Part shown: positions 16,916 through 40,187 of the stretch, piece after piece | Position numbering within the stretch: the stretch's first letter is position 1 | Layout of the letters: each line of letters begins with the position of its first letter | From: Erysipelotrichaceae bacterium | GTDB taxonomy: Bacteria; Bacillota_I; Bacilli_A; RFN20; DUOF01 | Direction: 5' to 3' | Length of the DNA: 64,000 nt | Assembly: GCA_015058985.1 (NCBI GenBank) | Contig: SVBH01000001.1 | Coordinates: forward strand, 1 to 64,000 | Program-made: the position numbers and the translations under genes | Notes under the pieces: model-generated | What the model was told of the DNA's origin: nothing | What the model saw: the letters and a program-made list of their open reading frames with translations, nothing else | Database searches by the model: none

Positions 16916-16942
16916 AATATCTCTCAATTGAACTAAAACAAT
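16916..16942. repeat. 27-bp direct repeat, left flank of element 1 (target-site duplication)
   Basis: Begins AATATCTCTC and ends CTAAAACAAT. It is identical over 27 bp to 40161-40187, while the bases just outside differ. It brackets the whole composite mobile region. Confidence 0.9.
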
Positions 16943-16943
16943 T

Positions 16944-16968
16944 GTTGGTTAACAAATGATGTGTCAGT
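16944..16968 (+). repeat. Left terminal inverted repeat of element 1
   Basis: Starts GTTGGTTAAC and ends TGTGTCAGT. It matches 20 of 25 positions with the reverse complement of 40136-40160 and shares the core ATGATGTGTCA with both element 2 tips. Confidence 0.85.
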
Positions 16969-16989
16969 TAGGCACATCATTTTTCTTTT
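16955..16989 (+). terminator. Inward-facing terminator built into the left tip of element 1
   Basis: AATGATGTG/CACATCATT perfect 9-bp stem followed by TTTTCTTTT. It would stop transcripts arriving from the flanking chromosome. Confidence 0.75.
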
Positions 16990-17008
16990 GTTAGATAGGA
17001 GAGATATT

Positions 17009-17047
17009 ATGGTGAATAAATGGAAGAGTAAAATTGAAGATACTTAA
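17009..17047 (+). CDS. Possible 12-residue leader peptide
   Basis: ATG after AGGAGAG encodes MVNKWKSKIEDT and overlaps the TTG start of the next gene (17034). It may serve only to couple translation of the membrane protein. No homologue is seen in element 2. Confidence 0.3.
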   Translation: MVNKWKSKIEDT

Positions 17048-17396
17048 ATCATTAAAAACTGGTGAAAGTAATAGAGCAATGTGGTTGATAGTTCTATTAG
17101 ACCTGGTAGCATTTGCTATAGCATTTTCGTATGGTGTAGAACTTCAATATTGTTATTTTTTCTTACTAATACCAGTTTGTGCAAATGTATTAACTAATTC
17201 ATTTAATTTAATTAGTTTACTGGTGTGTATAGCAAGTATTTTCGCATTCTTATATGGAATAGATGTAAATTTAGATGATGCAATATTCTTTTCAATAATT
17301 ATAGGTTGTGCATTGTCGTTCGTATCGTTTTTAAGATTAAATGGCAAATTTAAATACACTAATAAGACTAACAGAACAGGGAGATGGAAAAAATGA
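17034..17396 (+). CDS. Element 1 small membrane protein
   Basis: 120 residues starting at TTG. There are about four hydrophobic segments (residues 15-35, 38-55, 58-75 and 80-100) and a basic tail ending NRTGRWKK. It is homologous to the element 2 protein at 39553-39930: both have SN..MWL near residue 15, then NSFNL, then a tail ending RTGR(W/Y). It is the first gene of the element and overlaps the next by ATGA. It resembles small phage inner-membrane proteins only in general layout. Function unknown; perhaps part of the secretion or assembly complex. Confidence 0.6.
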   Translation: MKILKSLKTGESNRAMWLIVLLDLVAFAIAFSYGVELQYCYFFLLIPVCANVLTNSFNLISLLVCIASIFAFLYGIDVNLDDAIFFSIIIGCALSFVSFLRLNGKFKYTNKTNRTGRWKK

Positions 17397-17587
17397 AAAA
17401 CTCCATAGAAGCAATATTATTAAGAGTTGAAGTGTTGATTAGTTATGCTAAGCAGAATAAAAAAGATATGACCGCAATGTCTCCAGATTTTTATATTTCA
17501 GAACTTCAAAACATTTATAAAAATTTAGAAAATTTAAAAACTGATAAAAATTTAAATCTTAAAAAACTTAATGAAAAGAAAAGGTAG
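17393..17587 (+). CDS. Element 1 small helical protein
   Basis: 64 residues, mostly helical and charged with a Lys-rich tail. The start at 17393 overlaps the stop of the upstream gene (ATGA) and is 9 bases from AGGGAG. Its counterpart in element 2 is 39335-39553, in the same position with similar size and composition, including a conserved central (A/S)P(D/Q) turn. Function unknown. The open frame can start 9 bases earlier, without SD spacing. Confidence 0.55.
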   Translation: MKNSIEAILLRVEVLISYAKQNKKDMTAMSPDFYISELQNIYKNLENLKTDKNLNLKKLNEKKR

Positions 17588-17597
17588 GTAGATATTT

Positions 17598-18161
17598 ATG
17601 GCAAATGAAACAATGAATACAGAAAATAAGAATACTGCAGCAACTAAAGAAAATAAAATATTTATTCCTAGATATAAATTGTTGGATGAAGAAAATAAAA
17701 AAGAATTAGATTCTAAAATGGATGCACCAGCTAAATTAGTTAAGCGAAAGACAAAAAGTGGACAAGAAATTTATTCTTTAAAAGTTGCAATTTATCCTAA
17801 GGATGTTACTAGACCAACAAAATCAGATCCAACTGTTATTTTAGAAAAACGTATTGATAAAATTAAATATGATTTATACTCAGCTATTTTAGATAAAAAA
17901 GCTGTAAGTAATGGTGGTTCTGATATTGAAGAAATTCAATTTAAGGGAAAGCTTAGATTATCAGTCGGCTTGAATAAAAAAGGCGAAGATTGTTATATTT
18001 ATGATTTTTTCATTATTGGTCAAAAAAATAAGAAATGTATTTCAGACTATGTGAATAGTGATGAAATCGAATATATGCAAATGAAAAACTTTTTGCCTGA
18101 TGTAGAACAAAGAATTTATTCTGAAGATGAAGAAGTTGATAATTTTAACTTTGATTTCTAA
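17598..18161 (+). CDS. Candidate ssDNA-binding protein of element 1
   Basis: 187 residues. A beta-rich core (residues 50-150) ends in an acidic tail finishing NFDF. The homologue at 38721-39332 has the same core (CYIYDFFI versus CYIWDLFI, then NFLPDVEQRIYSEDEE versus NFLPEVEERIYSEDEE) and ends VIDF. An acidic tail closing with an aromatic residue is the partner-docking feature of bacterial SSBs, and the position early in the operon fits a phage ssDNA-binding protein. No classical OB-fold motif is obvious by eye, so this is inference. SD AGGTAG. Confidence 0.55.
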   Translation: MANETMNTENKNTAATKENKIFIPRYKLLDEENKKELDSKMDAPAKLVKRKTKSGQEIYSLKVAIYPKDVTRPTKSDPTVILEKRIDKIKYDLYSAILDKKAVSNGGSDIEEIQFKGKLRLSVGLNKKGEDCYIYDFFIIGQKNKKCISDYVNSDEIEYMQMKNFLPDVEQRIYSEDEEVDNFNFDF

Positions 18162-18215
18162 TAATTTCACTATAATTCCTCATTATCATCGTTGTGCCTA
18201 GTCAATAAATGATGG

Positions 18216-18353
18216 GATGACTGCTAGTATCTGCCATTAACTAGCTTTTTATCAATTATATAATTTTTTTATTCAGTAAAGTTTTTATACTTTTTAACTT
18301 TATACCCTCCTTTCCATTTATTTATTAGTTGATGGTAGGTACTAGTAGTCATC
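18216..18353 (+). promoter_or_regulatory. Long wobble-rich hairpin of element 1
   Basis: Arms 18216-18244 and 18325-18353 pair over 29 of 29 positions, five of them G.U or G.T. The loop is 80 nt and contains CCCTCC, an anti-Shine-Dalgarno-like run. The start codon of the basic protein follows 18 bases later. The equivalent place in element 2 (37981-38096) carries another 29-bp hairpin whose apical part is conserved (GCCATTAAC versus GCCACTAAC) with a compensatory T-A to C-G change. It could be an RNA leader or a ssDNA packaging/origin hairpin. Confidence 0.7.
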
Positions 18354-18370
18354 AGAAAAGGGGAAATATT

Positions 18371-18604
18371 ATGGCAACAAGATATAAGAATTATTTAGCA
18401 AAATTACGTGAGCAATCAAAAAAAGGTTCTACTCATGTTAACAAAAAAGGTGAAGTTGTACAAAACTCAGACTTTCAAAGAGGAGTAGCAATGGGTCGTT
18501 ATAAAGCAGCTTGTGAACAAGCAAAACGTTATAACAATAAAAAGAAAGCTGGAACCACAACAAAAAAGCAGACAACTAAACCTAGAAAGAAAAAGAAAGA
18601 ATAG
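18371..18604 (+). CDS. Element 1 small, strongly basic protein
   Basis: About 77 residues with a C-terminal tail of Lys/Arg and Thr (KKKAGTTTKKQ...KKKKE) and a central DFQRGVAMGRYKAA helix. The position after the hairpin and before the adhesin matches the basic 80-residue protein of element 2 (37683-37925), which has YASGFLKGAE at the same place. It probably binds nucleic acid, or could be a small virion protein; it has no membrane segment. The start is at ATG 18371 after AAGGGGA rather than the longer frame. Confidence 0.55.
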   Translation: MATRYKNYLAKLREQSKKGSTHVNKKGEVVQNSDFQRGVAMGRYKAACEQAKRYNNKKKAGTTTKKQTTKPRKKKKE

Positions 18605-18616
18605 AGGTAGATAAAT

Positions 18617-20347
18617 ATGTCTATAAATGAAAAAGATTTTAAAAAAGCTAAGAAAAAACATAAGTTTATGAAAGTTATGTCTTCTGTAGCTTTATTTGCA
18701 GGTATGACAGGAGCAGTAGTTCCTGCAGTAGCATTAACTAATAATGCTATTTCTATCCATGCGGAAGAACAGGCAAATAATCCGACAATCACGATAAATG
18801 GGTTTGAGTTGGAACTGCCATGCACAATTTATGTTGTTGATTATTATGAAGCTGTCTCACAAGAAGACGGATATATTACCGGACAACGATATTCTAATAT
18901 AAGAACTATTGAATTGGACAGTGCTGAAGATGTTGAATACATTCAGTCATTACGATATGTTTTAACAACAGACCAATTTGAAGATTATGACGATAATGAA
19001 AATTATGTGAAATTCGATAGTTATCAATATAGTAATCAAATATATACAGGGTATCATTCAGGTAACAAAGTTTATACAGGATTGATTACACCTCCTAAAA
19101 GTGGAAGTTATTATACTGCAGTATATGATGCAGGTGATAATTATGCTCCAGTGGTAGATGGTCAATTAACATATATAACATCACCATTTGCACCAGTGAC
19201 AATAGATACAATTATAGCTAATTTAAGAATTGTAGATAATGTGGATGGAGAAATATCTAATGAAAATATTGTTGTAGTTTCTAATGAATATACTGGTAAT
19301 GAGTCTGTACTAGGTGATTATACAATTGTATTAAATGTTACAGATACTGCTGGTAATACTGCTACATGTAATGTACTTATAATGGTTCAAGATTTAGAAG
19401 CACCGGCTATTACTGGTCCTATATCAGTTGATGCATATATATCAAAAAATTTAACTATAGATGATTTTAAGTCTTTATTATCTGTTTCTGATGATATAGA
19501 TGCATTAACTAAAGATGATATAGTTGTTAAAGAGGATAATTTTACAGCTAACAAAAATGTACCTGGTACATATAATGTGATTTTTTTCGCAACAGATACT
19601 GCAGGTAATGAAACTACTCATACGATGTCTGTAGTTGTAAAAGATGATATTAAACCTACTATTACTGGTACTGATGGATATACTAAGGGTTCTACTGATG
19701 TTCAAATGACATTAGATGGAATGTTGAATAATTTATCAGTAAACGATAATGTATCGATTCTAGATAAATCTAATTTAAATATTGTGTCTGATACATATTC
19801 TGGTAACGAAGGTAAAGTAGGAACATATAAAGTAGTTGTTAATATTACTGATGAGGCAGGAAATACATCAGACAATTTCACGATTACAATTGTGATCCTG
19901 GATGATGTGGCACCAGTATTCTGGGCTAACAACTCATTCTATGTACATGTAGATGGTGCAGTTGCATTATCTAATACACAATTAGCATACATAGCTCGTT
20001 CATTAGGCATTGTAGATAATACAAAAGATGCAAGTGTACAAATCATATCAAATGAATATGAGGGTAATGAAAGTACTAAAGGTGAATACATAGTATCTGT
20101 ACTTGCAGTCTATGAAGATGGAACACAAAATACAGGTTCATTCACACTATCAGTTGATAGCGACTTCAATGATGCAGTAATCATACCAGCAGATGAAGAA
20201 CCATTAAAATGGTATGAAAAAGCATGGAATGGAATTAAGTGGTTCTTTAGCTTCAAATGGCTAACAACTCCATTAAAATGGATATGGAATCATATTGTAG
20301 AACCAATATGGGAAGCACTTAAATGGTTAGGTAACAAATTGTTCTAA
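18617..20347 (+). CDS. Element 1 Ig-repeat surface protein (candidate adhesin)
   Basis: 576 residues. A basic N-terminus and signal peptide (to about residue 48, ending IHAEE), an N-terminal domain beginning INGFELELP, four or five DUF5011-type Ig repeats (starting at about residues 175, 260, 345 and 435), then a Trp-rich amphipathic C-terminus ending WLGNKLF, which could insert in membranes. Collinear with element 2's 35043-36671 and with the chromosomal 9250-10776. In filamentous phages the receptor-binding pIII has this place and layout, so I infer an adhesin. SD GAGGTAG. Confidence 0.7.
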   Translation: MSINEKDFKKAKKKHKFMKVMSSVALFAGMTGAVVPAVALTNNAISIHAEEQANNPTITINGFELELPCTIYVVDYYEAVSQEDGYITGQRYSNIRTIELDSAEDVEYIQSLRYVLTTDQFEDYDDNENYVKFDSYQYSNQIYTGYHSGNKVYTGLITPPKSGSYYTAVYDAGDNYAPVVDGQLTYITSPFAPVTIDTIIANLRIVDNVDGEISNENIVVVSNEYTGNESVLGDYTIVLNVTDTAGNTATCNVLIMVQDLEAPAITGPISVDAYISKNLTIDDFKSLLSVSDDIDALTKDDIVVKEDNFTANKNVPGTYNVIFFATDTAGNETTHTMSVVVKDDIKPTITGTDGYTKGSTDVQMTLDGMLNNLSVNDNVSILDKSNLNIVSDTYSGNEGKVGTYKVVVNITDEAGNTSDNFTITIVILDDVAPVFWANNSFYVHVDGAVALSNTQLAYIARSLGIVDNTKDASVQIISNEYEGNESTKGEYIVSVLAVYEDGTQNTGSFTLSVDSDFNDAVIIPADEEPLKWYEKAWNGIKWFFSFKWLTTPLKWIWNHIVEPIWEALKWLGNKLF

Positions 20348-20348
20348 T

Positions 20349-20398
20349 AAAATAAAAAAGATGAGGGGTCTATTTAGACTCTTCATCCTTATGCTTTA
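20349..20398 (-). terminator. Terminator of the reversed gene
   Basis: On the minus strand, GATGAAGAGTCTA pairs with AGACCCCTCATC and is followed by TTTTTTATT. The stop codon of the 61-residue gene lies inside the stem. Confidence 0.7.
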
Positions 20399-20555
20399 TG
20401 TGTTTATAGATAGATATTATTAAAGTGGTAATGCATATACATGCGAAAATAATTCCTATTGTTATAATGTAAGGGTTAGTTTTTGGAGCAGTTCCATAAT
20501 TATGATAGCAACCATCTCCGACACATTCTGCATTATTAAAATCTAATATATTCAT
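20370..20555 (-). CDS. Reversed 61-residue membrane protein carrying a copy of the viral CVGxGCYHxYGTAP motif
   Basis: The only clear gene of element 1 on the opposite strand. It has its own SD (AGAGGTG), a -10-like TATAAT upstream and its own terminator, so it is an independent unit. Residues 10-25 read ECVGDGCYHNYGTAPK; the neighbouring plus-strand protein has PCVGSGCYHDYGTAPT just before its TM helix. Then one TM helix (residues 30-50) and a basic/acidic tail. No cleavable signal, so probably N-out. The motif is conserved as an inverted DNA repeat as well. Possible roles: immunity or exclusion protein mimicking the virion protein, or a minor virion protein. Both are inference. Confidence 0.6.
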   Translation of the reverse strand: MNILDFNNAECVGDGCYHNYGTAPKTNPYIITIGIIFACICITTLIISIYKHIKHKDEESK

Positions 20556-20598
20556 TTATACACCTCTTAATGTGATTATACATAAAGGAGATGATAAT

Positions 20599-21573
20599 TT
20601 GAAGAAGTTAATAAAAAGATTGTTTTTAGTTTTATTCTTGGTTGCTTCGTGTTTATATATTTCACCTACTAAAATTAATGCTGAAACTTCTACTGATTCC
20701 ACAACATTAAAGCAATTTTCTGTAGATTTAGAAGATAGTATAGTATTTAACGTTCGTTATGATGCTAGTCTATCTGAAGCTTATTTAAGTGCAAGTATTA
20801 AAAATTATGAGTATCATTATTATACTGCAATTGCGTTTAATAAATTAGATGAAATAAATGATTTTGCATCATTTGATAGTATCAATTATAAATATAAGTA
20901 TTGTAAAACAGGTATGAATTTAATTCCTGGTGTATCAAGTACACATGTTTGTTTTAAAAAAACATGGTCTAAAGAAAAAGTTGTTTATGCTGAAGATATT
21001 CAAGAAATTAGAGAATTAAAAAGTACTGGTAATTTACTTAATCCATATAAAGTTGAATCTATTGGTACAATTAATCATATAGGTGAAGTTTCAACTTTAA
21101 TGGATATGGGTATTGCCTTTGATATTAAGTATAAAGAAATTGATTTATCAGATTATGATTATTACTTTTTAATGACTAAAAAGTTTACATATGAAGACTT
21201 AATTATAAAGGTCAATTATATAGATAATGATGGAAATTATAATGAAGCTCCTTGTGTTGGTTCTGGATGTTATCATGATTACGGAACAGCACCAACAAAC
21301 ATAGAAGATTTATTAAAAGAAATATGGACGTTTTTAAAAGATTATGGACCATTAATATTATTATTTGTAATAGCTTTTTTAGTAGGAATATGGGTTACAC
21401 CATTAATGAATTTGATAACAGGGGTGATAAAAATGGTAATAAAGATATTAGATTATGCATGGACAACGATAGTAAATGCGTGCATTGGAGTACATAATAT
21501 TTGGTTTTGGTTATGGACAAGAGATGACTATAAACGAAAGCAAAAAATGAAAAGTTACAGAAAGTATAATTAA
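20599..21573 (+). CDS. Element 1 secreted protein with CVGSGCYHDYGTAP motif and membrane C-terminus
   Basis: About 324 residues from a TTG start placed after AAAGGAG. A signal peptide (ends near INAET), a beta-rich ectodomain, the Cys/His-containing motif at about residue 215, then hydrophobic segments (about residues 245-290) and a strongly basic tail ending KSYRKYN. Its counterpart in element 2 is 32104-33264 (386 residues, tail KKKYNKYHY). An internal ATG at 21433 preceded by GGGGTG could give a separate 46-residue product resembling the small gene at 31928-32092. It lies directly upstream of the Zot-like ATPase, where phage pVI-like proteins lie. Confidence 0.6.
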   Translation: MKKLIKRLFLVLFLVASCLYISPTKINAETSTDSTTLKQFSVDLEDSIVFNVRYDASLSEAYLSASIKNYEYHYYTAIAFNKLDEINDFASFDSINYKYKYCKTGMNLIPGVSSTHVCFKKTWSKEKVVYAEDIQEIRELKSTGNLLNPYKVESIGTINHIGEVSTLMDMGIAFDIKYKEIDLSDYDYYFLMTKKFTYEDLIIKVNYIDNDGNYNEAPCVGSGCYHDYGTAPTNIEDLLKEIWTFLKDYGPLILLFVIAFLVGIWVTPLMNLITGVIKMVIKILDYAWTTIVNACIGVHNIWFWLWTRDDYKRKQKMKSYRKYN

Positions 21574-21579
21574 AAATAG

Positions 21580-22875
21580 ATGATTATTAGATTGTTTGAT
21601 TTTGTATCAGAACATATATTTTTTAGTTTAATAACGGGTCTAATAATCATATATGTATTGATACCTTACATAAGGGATGTAATCGATAATAAACGAATGA
21701 AAAAGGCATCAGATATTACACAAGACAAGGTAGATTCTTTGAACAGCTTTGTCTGGGGTGTGTCAGGACCAGTAGGATTTGGTAAAACAACTATGGCATC
21801 TGGAAATGCTCATGGCAAAGTTTTATCTTTGCTTGATCATATTGAAGATGTTTTGAAAGAAACTCAAAGACTAAACTGGACTATAAATTTTAATCATTTG
21901 CATGAGCAAATTGAAAAACTAATGCAAAAAGGTTTGAATACCTTTGAAATACAAGATGAAATAGCAAATAAGATGCCTTATTTATTCTATGCTAAACATG
22001 ATATAGGTACTGAGATAAAAAATGCTTTGGATATGTTAGATGAGTATGTGTCAGCTTACATCCATTCGATTAAAGGGATAACAATCTTATCAAATACAGA
22101 ATTCAGATGCAAATTGACAGGTCAATTATCTAAGTGTTATGAAACTGATATGACTTTCATGAAGGATAGATATATAAGTGGCGACTGGATAATTGATGAT
22201 TACACTATCATTATTGATGATGATGGTAATATGGATACTTTAACAACTGCATTAAACTTCCAAGCTTACGCTAAATTAGATACTGGTGGTTCTTTGTGGA
22301 AAAGACTTTTAAGACAAATGCACTTAGGTACAGTAGTTTTTATTACTACAGCTCAATCAATAGGAAGAATAGTAAAGGAAGAAAGAGAATTGATTCCAGC
22401 ACAATTAAATGTAGAAAAGAAATGTTATATTGCATGTGATTATTGGCGAACACAAAGAAATATCGAACGATTGCTAATAAAACCATGTGAATTCTTAGAA
22501 CGAATGTATTTAAGGATAAAACATGGGAAAGAAAAAGTGGATAGAGCTATGTTGATGCCAAACATCTTTAAAAGATGGCTATATAAACTAACTATACTGC
22601 AGTATAAATATTTCGCAAAAGGATATGTAGTATATCCTACGATAATTGACTATGGAAGTGATTTGATAGAACCTGAGCATTTTGACTTTGTCTATCCAGT
22701 AACATGGTGCTATGGAGCATTAAATAGCACTAATTTTAGATATTTCCAAAAGATGATGGTAGAAGCTAGTAATAAAACAATAGAAGAAGTAGCAGATAAT
22801 GATGGTTCAAAAGAAGCACAAGTAACTATCTTTAACAAGGTCATATCAAAGAGAAATGAAAAAGCGGCTTTTTAA
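21580..22875 (+). CDS. Zot-like (pI-type) assembly ATPase of element 1
   Basis: 431 residues. An N-terminal TM helix (residues 12-32) is followed by a P-loop ATPase: Walker A GPVGFGKTT (about residue 63), an acidic Walker B WIIDDYTIIIDDDG (about residue 206), a sensor-like ITTAQS, and a C-terminal domain. It is homologous throughout to 30627-31934. In filamentous phages the pI/Zot protein is the membrane ATPase that drives extrusion of ssDNA virions; a HerA/FtsK-like DNA pump is the alternative. There is no strong SD, so it is probably coupled to the gene ending 7 bases upstream. Confidence 0.72.
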   Translation: MIIRLFDFVSEHIFFSLITGLIIIYVLIPYIRDVIDNKRMKKASDITQDKVDSLNSFVWGVSGPVGFGKTTMASGNAHGKVLSLLDHIEDVLKETQRLNWTINFNHLHEQIEKLMQKGLNTFEIQDEIANKMPYLFYAKHDIGTEIKNALDMLDEYVSAYIHSIKGITILSNTEFRCKLTGQLSKCYETDMTFMKDRYISGDWIIDDYTIIIDDDGNMDTLTTALNFQAYAKLDTGGSLWKRLLRQMHLGTVVFITTAQSIGRIVKEERELIPAQLNVEKKCYIACDYWRTQRNIERLLIKPCEFLERMYLRIKHGKEKVDRAMLMPNIFKRWLYKLTILQYKYFAKGYVVYPTIIDYGSDLIEPEHFDFVYPVTWCYGALNSTNFRYFQKMMVEASNKTIEEVADNDGSKEAQVTIFNKVISKRNEKAAF

Positions 22876-22909
22876 TCTGCTGAAATCAATGTAAGGTGGG
22901 TGAGATAGT

Positions 22910-24274
22910 ATGGCAAATGAAAAATTTGGCAGTGGGGTATTAGGTAATACCCCACCTACCAATACATTCAGCAAAAAAAATAAGCTTTCAAATCCTTTTG
23001 AAATCTCTGAAAAAGTATTTGTGTGTATCGACTATCTTAAGTTTATGATACCTTATACGGATGAAAATTTGTATCGGGTGTTGGATATGTTAAAAGTAGA
23101 ATATGATAGTTATTTATTGACTGAGGGTCATTACGATGGAATGTTTAGGTATTTGCGCAGGTATGGCGATTTAATAGTTAAATTGCCTGGTGAAAAAGCA
23201 GATATCGATGATGTTTTTGATAATACTTGTTTTTGCATAGAAATGACTGGTCAAGCTTGTAGAAGTTATGAAGACCGTGGAGGATATTGGGATACACTAA
23301 TTTTTTACCTGGATAGTTTGAATGGTGAATGTGTTCGTATTGATACACCATTCGACATTCACGATAAAGATATATTGGAATTTGAAGAGTTTTATAAAAT
23401 GATATCTAAAGGTTGGTTTCAGAAAACTTTTAGAAGTATTAGGATAAATGGAGACCCAGAGTTTATTACTACATTAGATTTTTCAAAAGACTTTACGTTA
23501 TATTTAGGAAAACGTGGCTCTGATAGATTTATGAGAGTGTATAACAAGATGGCAGAACGTATAGCGAATGGATATGAAGTCTTTGATGAATACTGGATAA
23601 GATACGAGTATTCAATGGCACATGATAAATCTAAAATATTTGTTAAAAATTTAGTTAAACAAGGATTTAATAATTTTGGAAAATTAGTATCAGAAGCAAT
23701 ATTGGACTTTTTAGATTTTCGAGTACCTACAATTGATGGAATACCTACGAAAGATAATAATAAGGCAAGATGGGACAGATGGGATAAATGGATAAATATC
23801 CTAAATGTTACCAGTAAATTGAAGTTAACTAATGAGAATAATGTTGAGACCAACATTACTCGACAAAAGATATGGTTTGATAGATCCATGGCAGGACTAA
23901 TCCTGGGGTTCTATCTAACTGCAGATAGTGAACAAGAATTTTTAAACTTAATGTATAACTTTATGTATAAGCATATAACTAATAAAAAATTAGACCCTGT
24001 CAAATTTGAAAGAGTACAATGTGATAGAGTTAAACATGGTAAATGTAGAATTGATAGAACAGAGTTTTTAAATAAATTGGATGGTATAACTAAAATGTTA
24101 GGACCACATAAGACTTTTGAAAATGATGTACTAATGTATTACATGGGCATTTTGTTTAGAAATGGATTTACTGTAAGAGATATTTTGACAGAAGAAGAAT
24201 ATCAAGCAAATGAAGAATCTTTTTTGAAAGAGATGGAAGACATTTTTGGTGATATCTTGGTGGTAGAGGAATAA
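22910..24274 (+). CDS. Rolling-circle replication initiator (Rep_trans-like) of element 1
   Basis: 454 residues with the pattern of the replication-initiation-factor family used by pT181-type plasmids and many inoviruses: RYLRRYGD, IEMTGQACRSYED, RIDTPFD, YLGKRGSDRFMRVYNK (candidate nicking Tyr in VYNK), WIRYEYSMAHDK. It should nick the double-strand origin and start rolling-circle copying. It is homologous along its length to 29288-30604. SD GGTGGGTGA. The acidic C-terminus ends DILVVEE. The origin itself is not identified. Confidence 0.78.
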   Translation: MANEKFGSGVLGNTPPTNTFSKKNKLSNPFEISEKVFVCIDYLKFMIPYTDENLYRVLDMLKVEYDSYLLTEGHYDGMFRYLRRYGDLIVKLPGEKADIDDVFDNTCFCIEMTGQACRSYEDRGGYWDTLIFYLDSLNGECVRIDTPFDIHDKDILEFEEFYKMISKGWFQKTFRSIRINGDPEFITTLDFSKDFTLYLGKRGSDRFMRVYNKMAERIANGYEVFDEYWIRYEYSMAHDKSKIFVKNLVKQGFNNFGKLVSEAILDFLDFRVPTIDGIPTKDNNKARWDRWDKWINILNVTSKLKLTNENNVETNITRQKIWFDRSMAGLILGFYLTADSEQEFLNLMYNFMYKHITNKKLDPVKFERVQCDRVKHGKCRIDRTEFLNKLDGITKMLGPHKTFENDVLMYYMGILFRNGFTVRDILTEEEYQANEESFLKEMEDIFGDILVVEE

Positions 24275-24277
24275 AAT

Positions 24278-24634
24278 ATGAAACAAATTATATTTGATAT
24301 ATCCAATGAATATTTGGATAAGTTAACAGATAAAGATATAGCTATAAGAAGATATGTTGAAAAAGAAATTGAAAAACATATTACCTCTGGTAGCATATAT
24401 CGAATAAGTATAGATAAATTATTTAAGATATATGAAGCAACAAGAAACTATTATTTGCCATATCATTCTACATTAATAGTAGTTTTTGGAGTAAGTATGT
24501 ATGGAAAGGAATTTTTAGATAAATTTGGAACTAAAGATTCTATATGTTGGTCATATCGAATGAGTAAATATCAAAGAATGAGGGAAAAAGTAGCAAATAA
24601 GCACTTGGTTAAACCAAGAATGAGTGAGAATTGA
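24278..24634 (+). CDS. Element 1 Rep-associated small protein
   Basis: 118 residues, soluble, starting 4 bases after the Rep stop, so translationally coupled. It is homologous to 28874-29197, which follows Rep in element 2 (shared YYLP..(S/A)T, then YGK(E/D)FLD(K/E)F). Charged and helical. It may regulate or assist replication. Family not recognised. Confidence 0.6.
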   Translation: MKQIIFDISNEYLDKLTDKDIAIRRYVEKEIEKHITSGSIYRISIDKLFKIYEATRNYYLPYHSTLIVVFGVSMYGKEFLDKFGTKDSICWSYRMSKYQRMREKVANKHLVKPRMSEN

Positions 24635-24639
24635 AAGTA

Positions 24640-24800
24640 AATGCACGTCTGCTCGAAAAGACAGACATTCCCTTAAAAACAAGAAAAAATAACATTCACG
24701 TTATCCCGGTGTGCTCGATAAATGTCTGAACGAAGTGAGAACCTCGAGCAAGACAAACGGAGACTCGAATAAGTCGTAGTATTACCGGTGTGAATGTAGG
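24640..24800 (+). other. GC-richer structured non-coding region with interleaved inverted repeats
   Basis: TGCTCGA (24650-24656) and CAGACATT (24662-24669) pair with TCGAGCA (24744-24750) and AATGTCTG (24721-24728). ACATTCAC (24692-24699) pairs with GTGAATGT (24790-24797). The two sets interleave, so a pseudoknot is possible. CGGTGTG occurs twice. No long ORF. It is the best candidate in element 1 for an origin, packaging signal or ncRNA. Confidence 0.5.
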
Positions 24801-24821
24801 AAAAAGGAGCGGATTAGTTGA

Positions 24822-25679: not shown

Positions 25680-25719
25680 CAAAAAGAAAACAAGTAGTAT
25701 GAAACTACTTGCTAAAGAA

Positions 25720-25821: not shown

Positions 25822-25849
25822 AGCTTTACCTCCTTTCGTGAAAGACAAA

Positions 25850-25866
25850 ACATATCCTGGATATGT
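25850..25866. promoter_or_regulatory. 17-bp perfect palindrome, likely operator
   Basis: ACATATCCTGGATATGT lies between the divergent 33-residue minus ORF and a tiny plus ORF (25900-25959, 19 residues, SD AAGGTGG). It is a plausible operator controlling the switch region ahead of the transposase. Confidence 0.5.
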
Positions 25867-32092: not shown

Positions 32093-32103
32093 AAATTGTC
32101 CTC

Positions 32104-33264: not shown

Positions 33265-34680
33265 TTATATCAATCCTCCAAGTATCTTTTCTAAAAATGC
33301 TAATAACATTTGCCATAACATTTCTAAAAATCTTAACAATTTATTTTTGTCAGAATTATATTCATTAGCTCTATCATTATCACTTAAATACTTACTATCT
33401 ACAGTTTTAAATACAGCAGAGCATTCTTTAGTTCTATCATCATTAAATGTAAATTCAACATCTACTTGTGCTCCTCTTTCAACTAATCCAGCTTTATATT
33501 GTGTACTGACATAATCATCATTATCTAATGAATAAATATATTCTTTAGAAGAAAAACCATTTATATAAGCAACAACATATGCTAAAGAATCAGGTTCTAA
33601 ATATGAATTGCTAAGCACTAAATTAGTGTTAGTAATAGCAATAGGTAAAATTAAATCATCCGTTACAATTACTTTTATCACTTTTTCTTCACTAACATTT
33701 CCAGATTTGTCTGTTGCTTTATAAGAAAATTCATATTCTCCTACTATAAGTTGTTTTTGCTGATAAGTATTATTTATTACTTGAACATCTATATTCTCAT
33801 AGGAATCAACATTATCTTTAATTCCTAAAAATGAATATAAAACTTCTGGAGATAATATAACAGTGTTAGAAACTAGTATTTCTTCAAAATTAGAATCAAA
33901 GGTAGGAGCTATATTATCTGTAACAGTAATTAGAATTTCTAAAACTTGAGTGTAAGTTGTTCCATCTACAATCATTTGAGCTGTAACAATTACTTTATGA
34001 AAACCTACTTCAGAATAATGACTAGAGTATTCATCTTCGTAGGTATAAGTAGCAGTATAATCAGGAACTAATGATTTTACCTCAACATTAGCTAAAATTT
34101 CTTCAACATCTATTTTATTAGTTGCTGTAGTTTCATATTTTGTTTGACCATCGATATATAAATAATCACTAGGGTCTTCAAAAATACATACAGTTGCCAC
34201 TGCAGAATAATTTTTTCCATCATAATTTAAAGTAGCTGTGAATTTATAAACACCATATTGGCCAAGAACCCAATTATCATCATTAGAAAATGTTAAATCA
34301 GATTCTTGATAATCATCATACATCCATAACATTTCATATTCAGATGTACCAGCACATGTATCAACAGAGGCTTCATAGAAATAAAAATCAGATTCTAACA
34401 TCCATATTAGATTTTCTAAATTAAAATCTTTTCTGTATGCTGTTTCAAAATCTTCTGGAATAATATAAAAATTAGAATGTTTAATTAGAGAGCCATCAGG
34501 TTCCCTAGGGTCAGTGAAACTAGCTTCTAAATATGTACTAGAACCACAAGAACCGCCTCCACCTAAATCAGAGTCAGGTAATACCATATATGCTTTAGAA
34601 GATTGACTATTTTTTAATGAAAAAGAAAATGAGGAAAACAACATAAATAACAGACAAATAAATTTTCCAAGTCTTTTCAT
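33265..34680 (-). CDS. Element 2 second Ig-like surface protein
   Basis: About 471 residues. A signal peptide (to about residue 30), a Cys-containing N-terminal domain, two or three Ig-like repeats (IAPTFDSN, YEFSYKATDKSGNVSEE), and an amphipathic/hydrophobic C-terminus. It has no counterpart in element 1, so element 2 has an expanded adhesin set. The start at 34680 follows GAGGTG; it overlaps the upstream gene's stop region. Confidence 0.58.
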   Translation of the reverse strand: MKRLGKFICLLFMLFSSFSFSLKNSQSSKAYMVLPDSDLGGGGSCGSSTYLEASFTDPREPDGSLIKHSNFYIIPEDFETAYRKDFNLENLIWMLESDFYFYEASVDTCAGTSEYEMLWMYDDYQESDLTFSNDDNWVLGQYGVYKFTATLNYDGKNYSAVATVCIFEDPSDYLYIDGQTKYETTATNKIDVEEILANVEVKSLVPDYTATYTYEDEYSSHYSEVGFHKVIVTAQMIVDGTTYTQVLEILITVTDNIAPTFDSNFEEILVSNTVILSPEVLYSFLGIKDNVDSYENIDVQVINNTYQQKQLIVGEYEFSYKATDKSGNVSEEKVIKVIVTDDLILPIAITNTNLVLSNSYLEPDSLAYVVAYINGFSSKEYIYSLDNDDYVSTQYKAGLVERGAQVDVEFTFNDDRTKECSAVFKTVDSKYLSDNDRANEYNSDKNKLLRFLEMLWQMLLAFLEKILGGLI

Positions 34681-34685
34681 TACAT

Positions 34686-35039
34686 TCACCTCAAATCCCT
34701 CATATAAAATTTGTGTTTGTTTTTAAGTCTAATTGAACAATTCAATGAAATATTTTTAATATCAACATTTTCTATTGTTCTCATATCAAATGCACTATAT
34801 CTAGGTAAATTTATATCTTCTCTTGCTATTGGAACTAAAAGTCCCTTTTCTAATTCATTAAATTTTTTTCTTATAAATTCCCCTTTAGAATCTTTTAAAG
34901 ATACTATTGTATATACTGAGCATTTATCATCTTTTATATTTTTAATAAAAACATAGTGTCCTCCAGGCTTATTTTCTAAACCTGGAAGATTTATGTTTAA
35001 TGCATAACCAATTTTTCCAATTAAATTATTTTTTTTCAA
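34686..35039 (-). CDS. Element 2 hypothetical protein (117 aa)
   Basis: 117 residues, no signal or TM. A beta-rich run (GGHYVFIKNI, CSVYTIVSLKD, GLLVPIARED) has the feel of a PemK/MazF-like SH3 barrel, but the catalytic pattern is not clear, so I leave it unnamed. It sits between the two Ig-protein genes. It starts 3 bases after the stop of the upstream adhesin. Confidence 0.45.
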   Translation of the reverse strand: MKKNNLIGKIGYALNINLPGLENKPGGHYVFIKNIKDDKCSVYTIVSLKDSKGEFIRKKFNELEKGLLVPIAREDINLPRYSAFDMRTIENVDIKNISLNCSIRLKNKHKFYMRDLR

Positions 35040-35042
35040 TTA

Positions 35043-36671
35043 TTAGAACAATTTATTCCATACCCATTTTACTGCAGTCCATAGTTTTAAAACTATATCC
35101 CACAAGAACAAAGCAATACTTTCAACTATGTTGAATACAAAGACAACTAAATCTACTAACCATTCAAAAGTAATAACATATAGGAATCCATCTACAAACT
35201 TATCCCATCCGCTTTTTTTGACTGGTTTTTCTTCTCCTTGAATGATAACAGTACCTAAAGTTTCACTTACTGCAAATGTTACTACACCTGTAGTTGATTC
35301 TCCATTTGCATAAGTTCCTCTTAAATAAACTTGATATTCACCCTCTACAGTTTCATTTCCTACATAATCATTTTGAAGAATATCAATTTCTACTGTTCTT
35401 GTTTTGTCAAACATTCCTAATTCTCGAGCTACATAAGCAATATTTTGTTCAGTTAATAATGTTGTAGGCTTCACAACTACATAAAATTCTCCATTTGCCC
35501 AAAATACAGGTGGAATTTCATCGCTAACTGTTACTGTAATTGTATAGTCATCAGAAACATTATTTGAACCATCCGTTACATTAACTACAATTTTATATGA
35601 ACCAGGCTTATTAGCATTACCAGTTAACTCATCAGAAACAATATATACATCATCTGTTGTTACAGTGTAATAGTTATCTGAATAAGTTAATTCTGATAAT
35701 ATTGAGTCAATAGTTAATGTAACATTGTAAGCTTTAGTCCATTCATTTATACCTGAAATGGTAGGTTTAATATCATCAATAACAGAAACAACAGTAGTCT
35801 TAGTTGTTTCGTTTCCAGAACTATCAGTTGCCTTAACAACAACTTCGTATTGTCCAGGAACACCTTTATTAGAAGTATAATTGTCAGTAACTAGAACAGC
35901 TGTTAAACCAACATCTGCATTATCAGTAACAGTGAATAGTAACAAGAGTTCTTCAATATTTAAATCAGAAGATAAATATCTAGATACTGTAGCTGGACCA
36001 TTTATAATTGGATCAGTAGTATCTACTCTAATTACATTAATTGTTACTTGACTTGAATTTCCACTTCTATCAGTTGCACTGAAAACAATAGTACATGTTC
36101 CTAACTTTTTCTCAGTACAATTATTTTCAACTAATTCTTTTTCTACTTCTCCATCAACTTCATCTATTGCAGTTAAATTAGATTTTAATTCATCAATATC
36201 TAATTCTTCATCATAATTGATTGTATATGATAATTGACCATCAATAACAGGAGCATAAATATCCAATATTACATTCAATGTTACCGTCTTTGTAACATCT
36301 TCATAAGAAACTGAATAATTATTGTCTGATGTTTCACTAATAACTAAAGAATCAGAAGACATCGTATGAGTTGATGAACTTAAATTGCCTGTAGCTAAGC
36401 AAGTAGTAGAAGTATAAGAAAGTTCAAAATTTTCTCGAATAACAGCAATTCTTTCTTCTTCTGTAAGTTGAGAAGAAACATCAATCGTTGATGGACCACT
36501 TATACTATAAACGGTAGAATTCATTGAAGAATCACATTCTAATCCTCCAGGTAAGTCAATATATGCTTTTACATCACTTGCATTACTGCTTGAAAAAGCA
36601 GTTGCTCCTGCTGTGAAAATTGAACCTAAAATAAGAAGACTAGATAATATAAATTTCGATATTTTTTTCAT
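35043..36671 (-). CDS. Element 2 Ig-repeat surface protein (candidate adhesin)
   Basis: 542 residues. Signal peptide (to about residue 35), N-terminal domain, then four Ig repeats beginning APVIDGQL, DPIINGPA, IKPTISGI and IPPVFWAN, and a Trp-rich amphipathic end finishing VWNKLF. Collinear with 18617-20347 (APVVDGQL, APAITGPI, IKPTITGT, VAPVFWAN, ...GNKLF) and with chromosomal 9250-10776. Conserved repeats but divergent N-terminal domain fit a receptor-binding protein under diversifying pressure. Confidence 0.7.
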   Translation of the reverse strand: MKKISKFILSSLLILGSIFTAGATAFSSSNASDVKAYIDLPGGLECDSSMNSTVYSISGPSTIDVSSQLTEEERIAVIRENFELSYTSTTCLATGNLSSSTHTMSSDSLVISETSDNNYSVSYEDVTKTVTLNVILDIYAPVIDGQLSYTINYDEELDIDELKSNLTAIDEVDGEVEKELVENNCTEKKLGTCTIVFSATDRSGNSSQVTINVIRVDTTDPIINGPATVSRYLSSDLNIEELLLLFTVTDNADVGLTAVLVTDNYTSNKGVPGQYEVVVKATDSSGNETTKTTVVSVIDDIKPTISGINEWTKAYNVTLTIDSILSELTYSDNYYTVTTDDVYIVSDELTGNANKPGSYKIVVNVTDGSNNVSDDYTITVTVSDEIPPVFWANGEFYVVVKPTTLLTEQNIAYVARELGMFDKTRTVEIDILQNDYVGNETVEGEYQVYLRGTYANGESTTGVVTFAVSETLGTVIIQGEEKPVKKSGWDKFVDGFLYVITFEWLVDLVVFVFNIVESIALFLWDIVLKLWTAVKWVWNKLF

Positions 36672-36692
36672 TTATATCAATCCTCCTTTACT

Positions 36693-37667
36693 TTACTTAA
36701 TTAACAATATTCTTAATATATTACAAGAACCTGAAGGAGTATATTCTTGACCATCTTTAATAACAACAGCATTAGTTATATCTATATTTCCAAAATCGCT
36801 AATACGCATATTGAATCTTAATTCAGCATTACCTGTTGTATCAAGACCAATAAATGTGTTATTCATACTTGTGTGGTCTGAAATAATCCCATACATTAAC
36901 GGAACATTTCCATAGAAATAATAAGTTGTACCATCAATTGTTAATCCCATATCAAATTGAACAAAAGCAAAGTAAAATTGATGATTTAATAATTCTGAAA
37001 CACTAAATTGTTTTGAATTACCTGAAATCGAATCACTCGGTATGCTTTCAATTATGTAAGTAGATGTTCCACCTGAAGAACTATCATCTGCAACTGCTTC
37101 ATTCCAAGTAACATTACCATCTGAAATTGCTAAATAATAATTTCCATCTCCAGTTGGCATTACTGGAATATAATCCAACTCATTTTCTAAAGTTGTAATT
37201 TTATTTTCTATAGTAGAAATATTAGTCTCTACATTAGCTATTTGAGCTTTCATTTCTGAAATTTCAGTTTCTAAATTGTTGATTTCAGATTCTTTAGTAG
37301 AAATAGAAGTTTGTAAAGTAACTATATCACTTTGTAATGTTTCAATAGCGATTTTATTAGAATTGACATCTTCTTGTAAACTAGCTAATTCAGTTTCTTT
37401 TTCTTCTAATTCTTGACTTAATACTGCTAATTCACTTTTCTTTATTTCTAGATCAGCATTAGCTGAACTTAATAAAGAATTGACTCTATCTAACTCTTGT
37501 TGTTTAGTGACCAAACTAGCTTTATAAGAATCTATATCTTCTTGTGTATATACAATTTCTTCTTCATCAGAAAAACTTTGTTTTTCCTCTTCATTAGAAC
37601 AACCAGCAGTTAATCCTAATAAAGCAGAACAGACTATCGGTAATTTTAATAAACTTTTCTTTTTCAC
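36693..37667 (-). CDS. Element 2 lipoprotein with long coiled coil and fibre-like tip
   Basis: 324 residues. A lipoprotein signal with lipobox LTAGC (Cys about residue 23), a coiled coil over residues 45-165 (repeats of LE..I/L..Q), then a beta-rich domain of about 150 residues (YYLAISDGNVTWNEAV onward). Stalk plus globular tip is the architecture of phage fibres and surface adhesins, here membrane-tethered by a lipid. Only in element 2. SD is AGGAG. Confidence 0.6.
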   Translation of the reverse strand: MKKKSLLKLPIVCSALLGLTAGCSNEEEKQSFSDEEEIVYTQEDIDSYKASLVTKQQELDRVNSLLSSANADLEIKKSELAVLSQELEEKETELASLQEDVNSNKIAIETLQSDIVTLQTSISTKESEINNLETEISEMKAQIANVETNISTIENKITTLENELDYIPVMPTGDGNYYLAISDGNVTWNEAVADDSSSGGTSTYIIESIPSDSISGNSKQFSVSELLNHQFYFAFVQFDMGLTIDGTTYYFYGNVPLMYGIISDHTSMNNTFIGLDTTGNAELRFNMRISDFGNIDITNAVVIKDGQEYTPSGSCNILRILLIK

Positions 37668-37682
37668 TTTTTATCATTCTCC

Positions 37683-37925
37683 TTAATTAAATTTAATATT
37701 ATGAGCCTTATCTCTAGCTCTTTGTCCTGCTAATTGACCAGCTTTTGCAGGTTTAGGTAATTTATTGAAATTTTTAGAACATCCACTTTCAGCACCTTTT
37801 AAAAACCCACTTGCATATTGGCTTTTTGCTGACAAGTTTCCATATCCATTTTTTGAGACTTCATCTTGAAGTTCTTTCTTCCAATAAGATTTTCTTTGAT
37901 TCAAAGAATATTTTTGTTTTTTCAT
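37683..37925 (-). CDS. Element 2 small basic protein
   Basis: 80 residues, Lys/Arg-rich with QYASGFLKGAE and AGQLAGQRARDKAH helices. Positional counterpart of 18371-18604. SD AAGGAG. Probably binds nucleic acid, or is a minor virion protein. No TM or signal. Confidence 0.5.
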   Translation of the reverse strand: MKKQKYSLNQRKSYWKKELQDEVSKNGYGNLSAKSQYASGFLKGAESGCSKNFNKLPKPAKAGQLAGQRARDKAHNIKFN

Positions 37926-37980
37926 ATATTCTCCTTTTTAATTTTTAAGGGACTAAAACCGCAGTTTATTGTCCTCTGAA

Positions 37981-38096
37981 CTTTTGAGTGCTAGAACTAA
38001 CCACCAACCTAAAATAAAAATAAACAAATTTTTAAAATGTGTGTAAAAAAGAAAAATACAGGAGGTAGTTAGTGGCTAGTCCTAACACTCAAAAAG
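37981..38096 (-). promoter_or_regulatory. Long wobble-rich hairpin of element 2
   Basis: Arms 38067-38096 and 37981-38009 (read on the minus strand) pair over 29 positions with one bulged T and several G.T/U pairs. The loop contains CCTCC. The apical segment GCCACTAAC/GTTGGTGGT corresponds to GCCATTAAC/GTTGATGGT in element 1. A further hairpin-rich stretch (38105-38220, including CTTGCT/AAGCAAG) precedes it. No gene lies in 37926-38262. Confidence 0.7.
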
Positions 38097-38262
38097 TTTT
38101 TTTGTTGATAATTTATAAAATTCTTGCAAGTCTTTTATAGATTAGCTATACTAAATATAGTGAATCAACACTCACTTGCTTATGATTAGCAAGGGTGTGG
38201 AACTTGCTAACAGGTGAGTTCCTTAAGAATATTGGAAGTCCACCATGCAATGACTTAATAAC

Positions 38263-38721
38263 TCATTGCTTTTTTTTATACCTATTATTCATTTTAATTT
38301 TGTCATATTCCGTTAAAGGATTTAGATTAGAAACATATTTTGTTTCATATACCTCAGACCTATCTATTGAAGTAATTCTACTATCAACTTGTCTATCAGG
38401 TGTTCTATCTAAAACAATGGAGTCTGTAGTCCTTTTATTAACCGATGCTATAATTAGTTTGCCTTTAGCATCTTTATCAACAACAACAGCTACTCTAGGC
38501 TTTGATATCCCATTTTTAAAATGTTTATCATTTGTAACAATTAAGGTAGGTTCTTCAAAAGACCTACTTTTTAATTTTTCTAGTTCAGGAATTCTTTTTT
38601 TTGCTTTTAACAAATCTTCAGAACTTACTGACCTAGGATTGTTAATCATTTTTTTATAATAATTTAATTTTTCATTTACCGAATAATAGGTATAACCTGT
38701 TTTCCCATGTACAAAGCTCAT
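38263..38721 (-). CDS. Element 2 accessory protein (152 aa)
   Basis: 152 residues; starts in a TAATG overlap with the SSB-like gene. A helical N-terminus (ELEKLKSRSF), then a beta-rich region (TLIVTNDKHF, RVAVVVDKD, KLIIASVNKR) and a basic C-terminal tail. Absent from element 1. No family recognised; the beta region might be a small nuclease- or PemK-like fold, but no catalytic motif is visible. Confidence 0.45.
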   Translation of the reverse strand: MSFVHGKTGYTYYSVNEKLNYYKKMINNPRSVSSEDLLKAKKRIPELEKLKSRSFEEPTLIVTNDKHFKNGISKPRVAVVVDKDAKGKLIIASVNKRTTDSIVLDRTPDRQVDSRITSIDRSEVYETKYVSNLNPLTEYDKIKMNNRYKKKQ

Positions 38722-39332
38722 TAGAAATCAATTACTTGTTCAAATTCTTCATCTTCAGAATATATTCTTTCTTCTACTTCTGGTAGAAAGTTTTTAGCTT
38801 CCATTAACTCTAAATCTACATCTTTAACATAATCAGATTCATATTTTTTACCTGCTATAAATAAATCCCATATATAACATGGATTTCCTAATCTATTTAG
38901 TCCATAACTAATTCTGAATGGAGCTTTGAAAGCACATTCACTTCTTCCGTTACCACCATCAGTTAATTCTTTTCCTAAATAATGCAAATACAAATCAAAA
39001 TGAGACCTATCTAATTGTTTAGTAATAATAACTCTTGGAGTATTATCTAAAACAACTTTTGTTCCAGCTGGTAAAATAACAGCTCTTAATTCATATCTTT
39101 CTCTTTTTGATTTTTGATTAATTGTCTTAACTAATTTAGCTTGGATTTCAGATAATTTATCTAAATCTGCTTTATGTTCTTCAGACAACATTTTAGATCT
39201 ACTTATAAATAGAACTTTACCTGTTGCTGAATCTATTACTGTTCCATCTTTGGAAATAGTCTTTCCTGCAATTTCTTTTGTTCCATCTTCATTAACTTTT
39301 AAATTTTTAATATCTAAATTTTCATTTGTCAT
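38721..39332 (-). CDS. Candidate ssDNA-binding protein of element 2
   Basis: 203 residues. Homologue of 17598-18161 with the same core and acidic tail, ending EEFEQVIDF. Beta-rich centre, basic N-terminal part. SD GAGGATAA. The tail ending in aromatic Phe after acidic residues is the SSB-like feature. Function inferred from tail, operon position and conservation. Confidence 0.55.
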   Translation of the reverse strand: MTNENLDIKNLKVNEDGTKEIAGKTISKDGTVIDSATGKVLFISRSKMLSEEHKADLDKLSEIQAKLVKTINQKSKRERYELRAVILPAGTKVVLDNTPRVIITKQLDRSHFDLYLHYLGKELTDGGNGRSECAFKAPFRISYGLNRLGNPCYIWDLFIAGKKYESDYVKDVDLELMEAKNFLPEVEERIYSEDEEFEQVIDF

Positions 39333-39334
39333 AA

Positions 39335-39553
39335 TTATTTATCCTCTTTCTTCCCTAATTTTCTTAATTTTCTTAAATCTTCAATTTTTAAAATTTTCCC
39401 AACTTTTACATTTGCTGTTTTCAACTTTTCACTTATTTTTTCTAATTGCTTTAATACCAATTGTGGATTTATTGCTACTAAGTCCTTACTTTGCATAGAC
39501 ACTGTGTCAGATAATATGTCTATCATCAATATTGCTGATTCTAATTCTTTCAT
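39335..39553 (-). CDS. Element 2 small helical protein
   Basis: 72 residues, helical with a Lys-rich end. Start overlaps the stop of the membrane-protein gene (TAATG). Counterpart of 17393-17587. Confidence 0.5.
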   Translation of the reverse strand: MKELESAILMIDILSDTVSMQSKDLVAINPQLVLKQLEKISEKLKTANVKVGKILKIEDLRKLRKLGKKEDK

Positions 39554-39930
39554 TATCTGTATCTTCCAGTTCTGGTTCTTCTTACTTTATACTCTTGCTT
39601 AAATCTTACATTGTGCTTAAAGAAACCTATAAGTGATAATCCTGCACCAACTAAAACAGAATAGAATAATGCATTTTCTATACTCCCAGTAGTTGTATAG
39701 ATAACTGTGAATAGTTCCAAAATGCATAACATCAATGAAACTAAATTAAATGAATTTGTTATGATGTTTATTAACACTGGAATTATTAAGAATACTGAAC
39801 AATATATAAGTGGAACATCAAACTTAATAGCAAATGCAAAAGCTACTAATTCAATAATGATAGTTAGCCACATCACATTATTACTTTCATTCTTCTTTAT
39901 TGCCCTTACAGAATTCTTAACTAAACTCAT
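39553..39930 (-). CDS. Element 2 small membrane protein
   Basis: 125 residues with four hydrophobic segments and a basic tail TRTGRYR. Homologue of 17034-17396 (SN..MWL, NSFNL, RTGR). First gene of the element, overlapping the next by one base. Unknown function, possibly in assembly or membrane insertion. Confidence 0.6.
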   Translation of the reverse strand: MSLVKNSVRAIKKNESNNVMWLTIIIELVAFAFAIKFDVPLIYCSVFLIIPVLINIITNSFNLVSLMLCILELFTVIYTTTGSIENALFYSVLVGAGLSLIGFFKHNVRFKQEYKVRRTRTGRYR

Positions 39931-39981
39931 AACTCTCTACCTTACAATTTGAACTGTAATTTTCTCCTTTCCTCAATATAG

Positions 39982-40011
39982 CAAAAAAGATGTGCCATTT
40001 TGTGACACATC
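39982..40011 (-). terminator. Inward-facing terminator at the left tip of element 2
   Basis: GATGTG/CACATC stem followed by TTTTTTGC on the minus strand, overlapping the terminal inverted repeat, as at the element 1 left tip. Confidence 0.65.
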
Positions 40012-40025
40012 ATTTGTTCAGTTAC
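40002..40025 (-). repeat. Terminal inverted repeat of element 2, operon-start end
   Basis: On the minus strand it starts GTAACTGAAC and ends ATGTGTCAC; partner of 26967-26990. Confidence 0.85.
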
Positions 40026-40052
40026 ATTCTTAGCTTCAATTTATTTAAAATT
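40026..40052. repeat. 27-bp direct repeat, right flank of element 2
   Basis: Second copy of 26940-26966. The following bases 40053-40160 are the displaced right end of element 1, including the lost 3' codons of its transposase. Confidence 0.92.
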
Positions 40053-40135
40053 TTCTTGTAAAGAAACTCCTTTAATGTTATCATATTCATAACAAAAGAA
40101 ATGTATTTTTGCTAGAGTTCTAGCATAATATATTT
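40053..40135 (+). other. Displaced right end of element 1
   Basis: Contains the original last 13 codons and stop of transposase 1 (in frame after the repeat) and a perfect TGCTAGA/TCTAGCA hairpin (40110-40125), leading into the right inverted repeat. Confidence 0.75.
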
Positions 40136-40160
40136 ACTGACACAACATCGGCTAACCTAC
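40136..40160 (-). repeat. Right terminal inverted repeat of element 1
   Basis: On the minus strand it starts GTAGGTTAGCC and ends TTGTGTCAGT; partner of 16944-16968. Confidence 0.85.
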
Positions 40161-40187
40161 AATATCTCTCAATTGAACTAAAACAAT
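40161..40187. repeat. 27-bp direct repeat, right flank of element 1
   Basis: Second copy of 16916-16942. It lies about 30 bases before the start of the downstream chromosomal gene. Confidence 0.9.

Follow-up and report, generated by a model that had tools for sequence, protein, structure and literature searches.

The window analysed here, a stretch of 64,000 nucleotides from an Erysipelotrichaceae bacterium (assembly GCA_015058985.1, contig SVBH01000001.1, positions 1 to 64,000), contains two related transposon-like elements, E1 and E2, the second located inside the first and in the opposite orientation (Table 1). Both have the same gene order: a small membrane protein, a possible single-stranded DNA (ssDNA)-binding protein, a secreted Ig-like protein, a membrane protein, a P-loop ATPase, a replication initiator, a small protein and a DDE transposase, several of the proteins being homologous between the two elements. 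E2 carries an extra open reading frame (ORF) for a lipoprotein-like coiled-coil protein (36693-37667, 324 amino acids), with no homologue found in E1. The Rep_trans initiators and DDE transposases that an earlier note on this DNA had named from the letters alone were recognized by Pfam. E1 and E2 are probably the integrated genomes of a filamentous-phage-like lineage that integrates by a DDE transposase related to the insertion sequence (IS) family IS481, where relatives of its ATPase use a tyrosine integrase.

Table 1. Features of E1 and E2 and of related elements (positions are those of the window unless a locus is named; aa, amino acids)
Feature	Position	Strand	Remarks
Element E1, with E2 inside	16943..40161	+	23,219 bp, about 10.1 kb without E2; TGT...ACA ends; 26-bp duplication
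Element E2, nested in E1, inverted	26966..40026	-	13,061 bp; TGT...ACA ends; 25-bp duplication
E1 target duplication, left copy	16917..16942	.	identical to 40162-40187
E1 target duplication, right copy	40162..40187	.	identical to 16917-16942
E2 target duplication, left copy, in 3' tail of E1 transposase gene	26941..26965	.	identical to 40027-40051
E2 target duplication, right copy	40027..40051	.	identical to 26941-26965
E1 conserved soluble protein, possibly ssDNA-binding (guess)	17598..18161	+	acidic phenylalanine-ending tail; homologue in E2; no Pfam match
E1 secreted Ig-like protein, possible adhesin	18617..20347	+	Ig-like Pfam matches
E1 membrane P-loop ATPase, possibly Zot/pI-like	21580..22875	+	hydrophobic N-terminus, GPVGFGKTT; motifs, remote profile similarity; no Pfam Zot match
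E1 replication initiator (Rep_trans)	22910..24274	+	PF02486 E 6.9e-25
E1 DDE transposase, 325 aa	26005..26982	+	D146 D212 E255; Pfam rve E 8.7e-19; catalytic triad
E2 DDE transposase, 319 aa	27041..28000	-	55% identical to that of E1; Pfam rve E 1.2e-15; alignment; triad
E2 replication initiator (Rep_trans)	29288..30604	-	PF02486 E 4.4e-26; best phage match an Inoviridae genome, E 6e-19
E2 membrane P-loop ATPase	30627..31934	-	57% identical to that of E1
E2 homologue of Ig-like protein	35043..36671	-	homology to E1 18617..20347 protein
E2 homologue of E1 soluble protein	38721..39332	-	homology to E1 17598-18161 protein
Promoter beside E1 insertion	16884..16912	-	TTGTTT-17-TATAAT; reads toward host gene, ATG near 16868 (-)
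Promoter-like sequence beside E2 insertion	40056..40084	+	TTGTAA-17-TATCAT; inside E1 right end
Sister element G110			13,051 bp; 26-bp duplication
Promoter beside G110 element			TTGACA-17-TTTAAT
Sister element G488	L198:398-15883		15,486 bp; 25-bp duplication
Promoter beside G488 element			TTGATT-16-TATACT
Sister element G512	L199:5031-16094		11,064 bp; 26-bp duplication
Promoter beside G512 element			TTGAAA-17-TATAAT; upstream of ribosomal protein operon starting with S10-like protein

The earlier note had described both elements as bracketed by 27-bp target duplications. The repeats are indeed exact 27-mers (16916-16942/40161-40187 and 26940-26966/40026-40052), and the only other exact direct repeats of at least 20 bp in the window belong to a CRISPR-like array or, in a single case of 22 bp, lie inside E2. 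However, a gap-free alignment of the four element ends (TGTTGGTTAACAAATGATGTGTCAG, TGTAGGTTAGCCGATGTTGTGTCAG, TGTAACTGAACAAATGATGTGTCAC and TGTATAGTAACCGATGATGTGTCAG) requires each element to start with TGT and finish with ACA, so that the repeats resolve into target duplications of 26 bp for E1 and 25 bp for E2. The inverted repeats, described before as imperfect, agree at 21/26 positions in E1 and 19/26 in E2, and the core ATG(A/T)TGTGTCA is common to both elements. Exact duplications and matched ends bear out that two insertions took place, one nested in the other and each bringing its own transposase: to judge from the sequence, E1 inserted upstream of a host gene (ATG near 16868, minus strand) and E2 entered E1 later. 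It had also been argued that removal of E2 restores the reading frame of the E1 transposase. Without E2 the translated frame is still open, with 334 amino acids instead of 325, but the insertion alters only the non-conserved C-terminal tail; the second insertion is therefore demonstrated by the duplication and not by the frame.

A filamentous-phage nature of E1 and E2 appears quite likely when their proteins are compared with those of known phages. The E2 initiator matches Inoviridae genomes in which Zot is likewise followed by Rep. The transposase also occurs in five further genomes of the class, of which three belong to the same order and two to another family. There it is tied to a phage-like operon coding for small membrane and secreted proteins, a membrane ATPase of ~710-730 amino acids and an ORF2/G2P-type Rep, recognized as PF23343 by Pfam (first three genomes) or by profile (remaining two). 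Three of these sister elements (G110, G488 and G512) could be delimited and show duplications of 25-26 bp (Table 1). A rolling-circle replication initiator is present in both sets, Rep_trans in E1 and E2 and G2P type in these sister elements, and the ATPases that accompany the two kinds of Rep are homologous (hhalign 97%, E 5e-11). The ATPases of E1 and E2, proposed earlier to be Zot-like, share the invariant P-loop, D, R, Q, R pattern with annotated Zots and are linked remotely to ORF2 of Spiroplasma phages, itself Zot-like by profile (hhalign 96.6%), which is supportive but not proof. Several observations weigh against a phage identity: (i) no Pfam Zot (PF05707) match was obtained for the ATPases, so that the Zot-like label stands by motifs and remote profile similarity; (ii) their direct profile comparison with annotated Zots aligns the P-loop only; (iii) no small ORF could be assigned as the gene of the major coat protein, and (iv) plasmid proteins and relaxases also belong to the Rep_trans family. 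An AF2 model of the ATPase, built from two sequences, failed with a pLDDT of 34, and the ATPase profile retrieved nothing meaningful from PDB sequences.

Point (iv) leads to another explanation, in which E1 and E2 would resemble integrative mobilizable elements, with Rep_trans as a MobT-type relaxase, the ATPase as a DNA-transfer protein and the DDE transposase integrating, as in TnGBS-type elements. Rep_trans proteins occur on many mobilizable plasmids, and TnGBS shows that conjugative elements are able to use a promoter-targeting DDE transposase. The match of the E2 Rep to MobT is weak (54 bits for a cut-off of 600), and its best phage match (E 6e-19) is stronger than its best plasmid match (E 4e-14). 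The ATPase is without a plasmid match, its homologues in the sister elements accompany a G2P-type phage Rep, and the order of ATPase followed by Rep is that of the Inoviridae. Taken together, mobilizable elements are an improbable identity for E1 and E2. In the saliva inovirus D_HF3_12 (OR148970; L164:1703-2653) a gene annotated as transposase is placed between Zot and Rep; it was not retrieved in a search with the E1/E2 transposase.

Within the phage-like lineage favoured here, relatives of the ATPase that occur without the transposase are accompanied by a tyrosine integrase gene close to the ATPase and Rep genes (Pfam Phage_integrase in 5/5, profile matches in six more). Transposase and tyrosine integrase occur together in no element checked, which suggests that the transposase would fill the integrase role. 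One tyrosine-integrase relative (L116/L117, G028:C14) is duplicated in tandem, the two copies being nearly identical and spaced by about 10.5 kb. The G488 and G512 elements, from one genus, lie at different promoters with different duplications; both contain plus-strand ORFs opposite to the phage operon, possibly cargo.

Both transposases have the complete DDE triad and the rve catalytic core. The AF2 model of the E1 enzyme (pLDDT 84.7) matches the fold of IstA, TnsB and retroviral integrase, as expected since they belong to the same superfamily. The best NCBIfam model for the two proteins is that of IS481 (NF033577), with 169 and 173 bits, below the cut-off of 224, and the IS481 traits of rve DDE core and TG...CA ends are present in E1 and E2. 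Relatives were sought in one genome per species; the 58 loci found come from Bacilli, Clostridia and streptococci and encode proteins that are for the most part 45-57% identical. Most of the loci are plain ISs, about 1.1-1.3 kb long, whose left end precedes the match by roughly 93-119 bp. Both ends and exact 24-27-bp duplications were located for 19 plain ISs of Firmicutes, and the same range covers all 22 delimited insertions; long duplications are therefore a property of the transposase group. These duplications and the many independent copies uphold, as far as movement is concerned, the earlier proposal of a virus-like genome moving as a transposon, whereas its filamentous identity is what we infer. 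The tree built here has long branches and does not settle a single origin, so one or several captures may have occurred.

Scans of viral contigs with transposase, ATPase and Rep queries gave no relatives, the queries being peptide patterns from 1-2 sequences and hence poor seeds. The fecal phage contigs MT836237 and MT838633 encode a related transposase but no Zot or Rep of the E1/E2 kind. In two Clostridia loci (L067:9983-11017 and L072:9920-10963) related transposases stand beside apparent tail genes of tailed prophages, and no delimiting ends with a duplication of at least 14 bp were found there; the transposase group may also serve tailed phages.

Two candidate targets were discarded, since the duplications are no more palindromic than shuffles, and inspection of the window targets by eye showed no dif/Xer target like that of ISAjo2. 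For the analysis of the flanks, insertions were oriented by the transposase gene and scored against TTGACA/TATAAT, out of 12. Beyond the transposase-distal duplication, 4 bases lead to a -35 hexamer, which is followed after about 17 bases by a -10 hexamer; this promoter is directed away from the element. For the 22 delimited insertions the match averages 9.27/12. The opposite flank gives 5.45, shuffles 5.82 +/- 0.25 and random positions 5.27; a score of at least 9 is reached at 16/22 sites versus 1% of random positions. A second set comprises 25 insertions of which the left end alone is known; here the mean is 9.16 versus 5.78, with 17/25 scoring at least 9 versus 1.6%. All delimited phage-like elements (5/5) keep the rule; among the 22 sites, L049 and L139 depart from it, the latter scoring 9 on the other flank. 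The duplication, as placed by these hexamers, spans roughly -40 to -65 of a sigmaA-type promoter, and the transposase-distal end of the element faces the promoter. Since one undamaged copy of the 25-26 bp upstream stays with the promoter, little harm from insertion is expected.

Every observed insertion is a survivor of selection and near-promoter hexamers are plentiful in AT-rich intergenic DNA, so that selection or base composition might produce such proximity without targeting by the transposase. Against this stand a -35 element whose first base is, at most sites, base 5 counted from the edge of the duplication, mostly with a 17-bp spacer and in a fixed orientation, the lack of signal on the opposite flank, the score of 5.82 in shuffles of the very same flanks and the replication in the second set, and this explanation is very unlikely. 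Movement driven by the transposase, with promoter targeting, is close to certain.

An empty site with a single target copy had been proposed as a test of the insertions. At the window site the three family relatives lack both neighbouring genes that were tested, so that they offer no empty site for E1 and E2, a point against our interpretation. Such a site was found for the homologous G110 element. It lies at the 3' end of a nucleotidase-like gene and precedes a promoter whose operon resembles IF-3/L35/L20 in its protein sequences. When the G110 flanks are joined with one 26-bp copy, the resulting 660 bases match the sister species G102 continuously, with 84% identity and small indels only; by this alignment G102 holds the empty site, with the whole unit absent. 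Although plain ISs with the same transposase exist, it is scarcely credible that the phage genomes were integrated otherwise and flanked by unrelated ISs in a composite structure, as there is one transposase per element, one end per extremity and a duplication that encloses the complete unit, seven phage-like elements are arranged alike, and the absence of the whole unit from the empty site contradicts such a structure.

Filamentous phages moving by transposition are already known in vespertilioviruses (PMC8295915) and in Neisseria Nf (PMC4471427). Vespertiliovirus (Plectroviridae; Spiroplasma phages C74 and SkV1) resembles E1 and E2 as a filamentous phage with an rve-type transposase; its ORF3 is distantly related to the E1/E2 transposase, and its Zot-like ORF2 has a hydrophobic N-terminus ahead of the ATPase. 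The Vespertiliovirus genome, described as a circular transposition intermediate (PMC8295915), has about 8 kb and, in the description of the International Committee on Taxonomy of Viruses, lacks a p2-type Rep and has a transposase in its place; E1 and E2 carry both. The Vespertiliovirus profile (PMC8295915) mentions no 25-bp duplication or promoter rule. Nf is likewise integrated by its own transposase, but this is of the Piv type (pivNM/irg), the target is the dRS3 repeat and the duplication has 2 bp (CT) (PMC4471427). Like E1 and E2, TnGBS and ISs of the ISLre2/ISKra4 groups use a DDE transposase and not a phage-like integrase, and they insert in a fixed orientation upstream of sigmaA promoters (PMC3942029). 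TnGBS differs in that its transposase is of the Mutator type (p-MULT), it inserts 15-17 bp ahead of the -35 element, IR-right faces the promoter and the cargo is conjugative (PMC3942029). The E1/E2 transposase is rve/IS481-like, and no conjugation family was found among the element proteins searched with protein family models. According to Roux et al. 2019, who pooled inovirus transposases with selfish elements, the two are inseparable on sequence alone (PMC6813254).

The likeness to the IS1202 group, pointed out in the earlier note, holds for the long duplications. IS1202 and IS481/IS481EU have a DDE transposase, TGT...ACA ends and discrete classes of duplication length, including 24-29 bp (PMC10045372, PMC10132070), and the duplications of 16-29 bp, terminal inverted repeats of 24-26 bp and TGT...ACA ends that define the IS1202 group (PMC10132070, PMC10045372) are found in the E1/E2 group. 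The likeness does not extend to the transposase, which has 319-325 amino acids compared with 394-507 in IS1202 (PMC10132070) and scores best, though below cut-off, with IS481, most members of which make 6-bp duplications instead of 25-26 bp. For the IS1202 members with long duplications no target was found (PMC10132070, PMC10045372), and no phage cargo is described for IS1202 or IS481/IS481EU.

The ends of the elements contain a further signal. In 18/22 elements, including that of G110, a TTGACA-like hexamer lies 8 bases from the right terminus and TACAAT starts at base 9 of the left end; G488 and G512 have the same hexamers. Joined with a spacer of 1-2 bases, the ends would give a promoter with 17-18-bp spacing. 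Junction promoters are a feature of ISs passing through a circle, as in the IS3 group. Against such a circle, E1 and E2 are without the hexamers of their relatives, and a degenerate pattern for the end-to-end junction matched nothing in viral contigs; for both reasons the circle step is kept conditional in the following model. The transposase would join both ends into a double-stranded circle, which Rep would take for rolling-circle replication, and the membrane ATPase would aid export of ssDNA in a filamentous particle. The target would be located via promoter-bound RNA polymerase or via the structure of the upstream DNA. A stagger of 25-26 bp is about 2.5 helical turns, so that the faces on which the two joining events occur would be related to each other as they are in the ~5-bp class. 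We give even chances to the full proposal, namely that a group of filamentous phages swapped site-specific integrases for an IS-derived DDE transposase recognising promoter-bound transcription machinery, the circle being at once transposition intermediate and replicative form.

Outside the elements, an ORF at 9106-10773 is homologous to the Ig-like secreted protein of E1 and E2 (phmmer E 2e-32). The CRISPR-like array (57416-58867) has 22 regular 36-bp repeats and 30-bp spacers, none of which matches E1, E2 or any collected locus with up to 5 mismatches allowed.

What is new here is the promoter target rule for the long-duplication transposase group and the exchange of integrase and transposase within one phage-like lineage; in the open-access literature searched, neither of them, nor the combination, was found, and the earlier note has neither the promoter targeting nor this exchange. 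Three literatures are thereby joined, those on long-duplication IS481/IS1202-like transposons, on promoter-targeted transposition by the Mutator-type TnGBS and on transposing filamentous phages of Spiroplasma and Neisseria. The mechanism by which a DDE enzyme produces 25-bp staggers, and a possible reading of RNA polymerase by the enzyme, are now directly testable. If the proposal is true, the phages would have at their disposal many equivalent, nearly harmless integration sites, and the target spacing of two and a half turns would follow from recognition of the promoter machinery.

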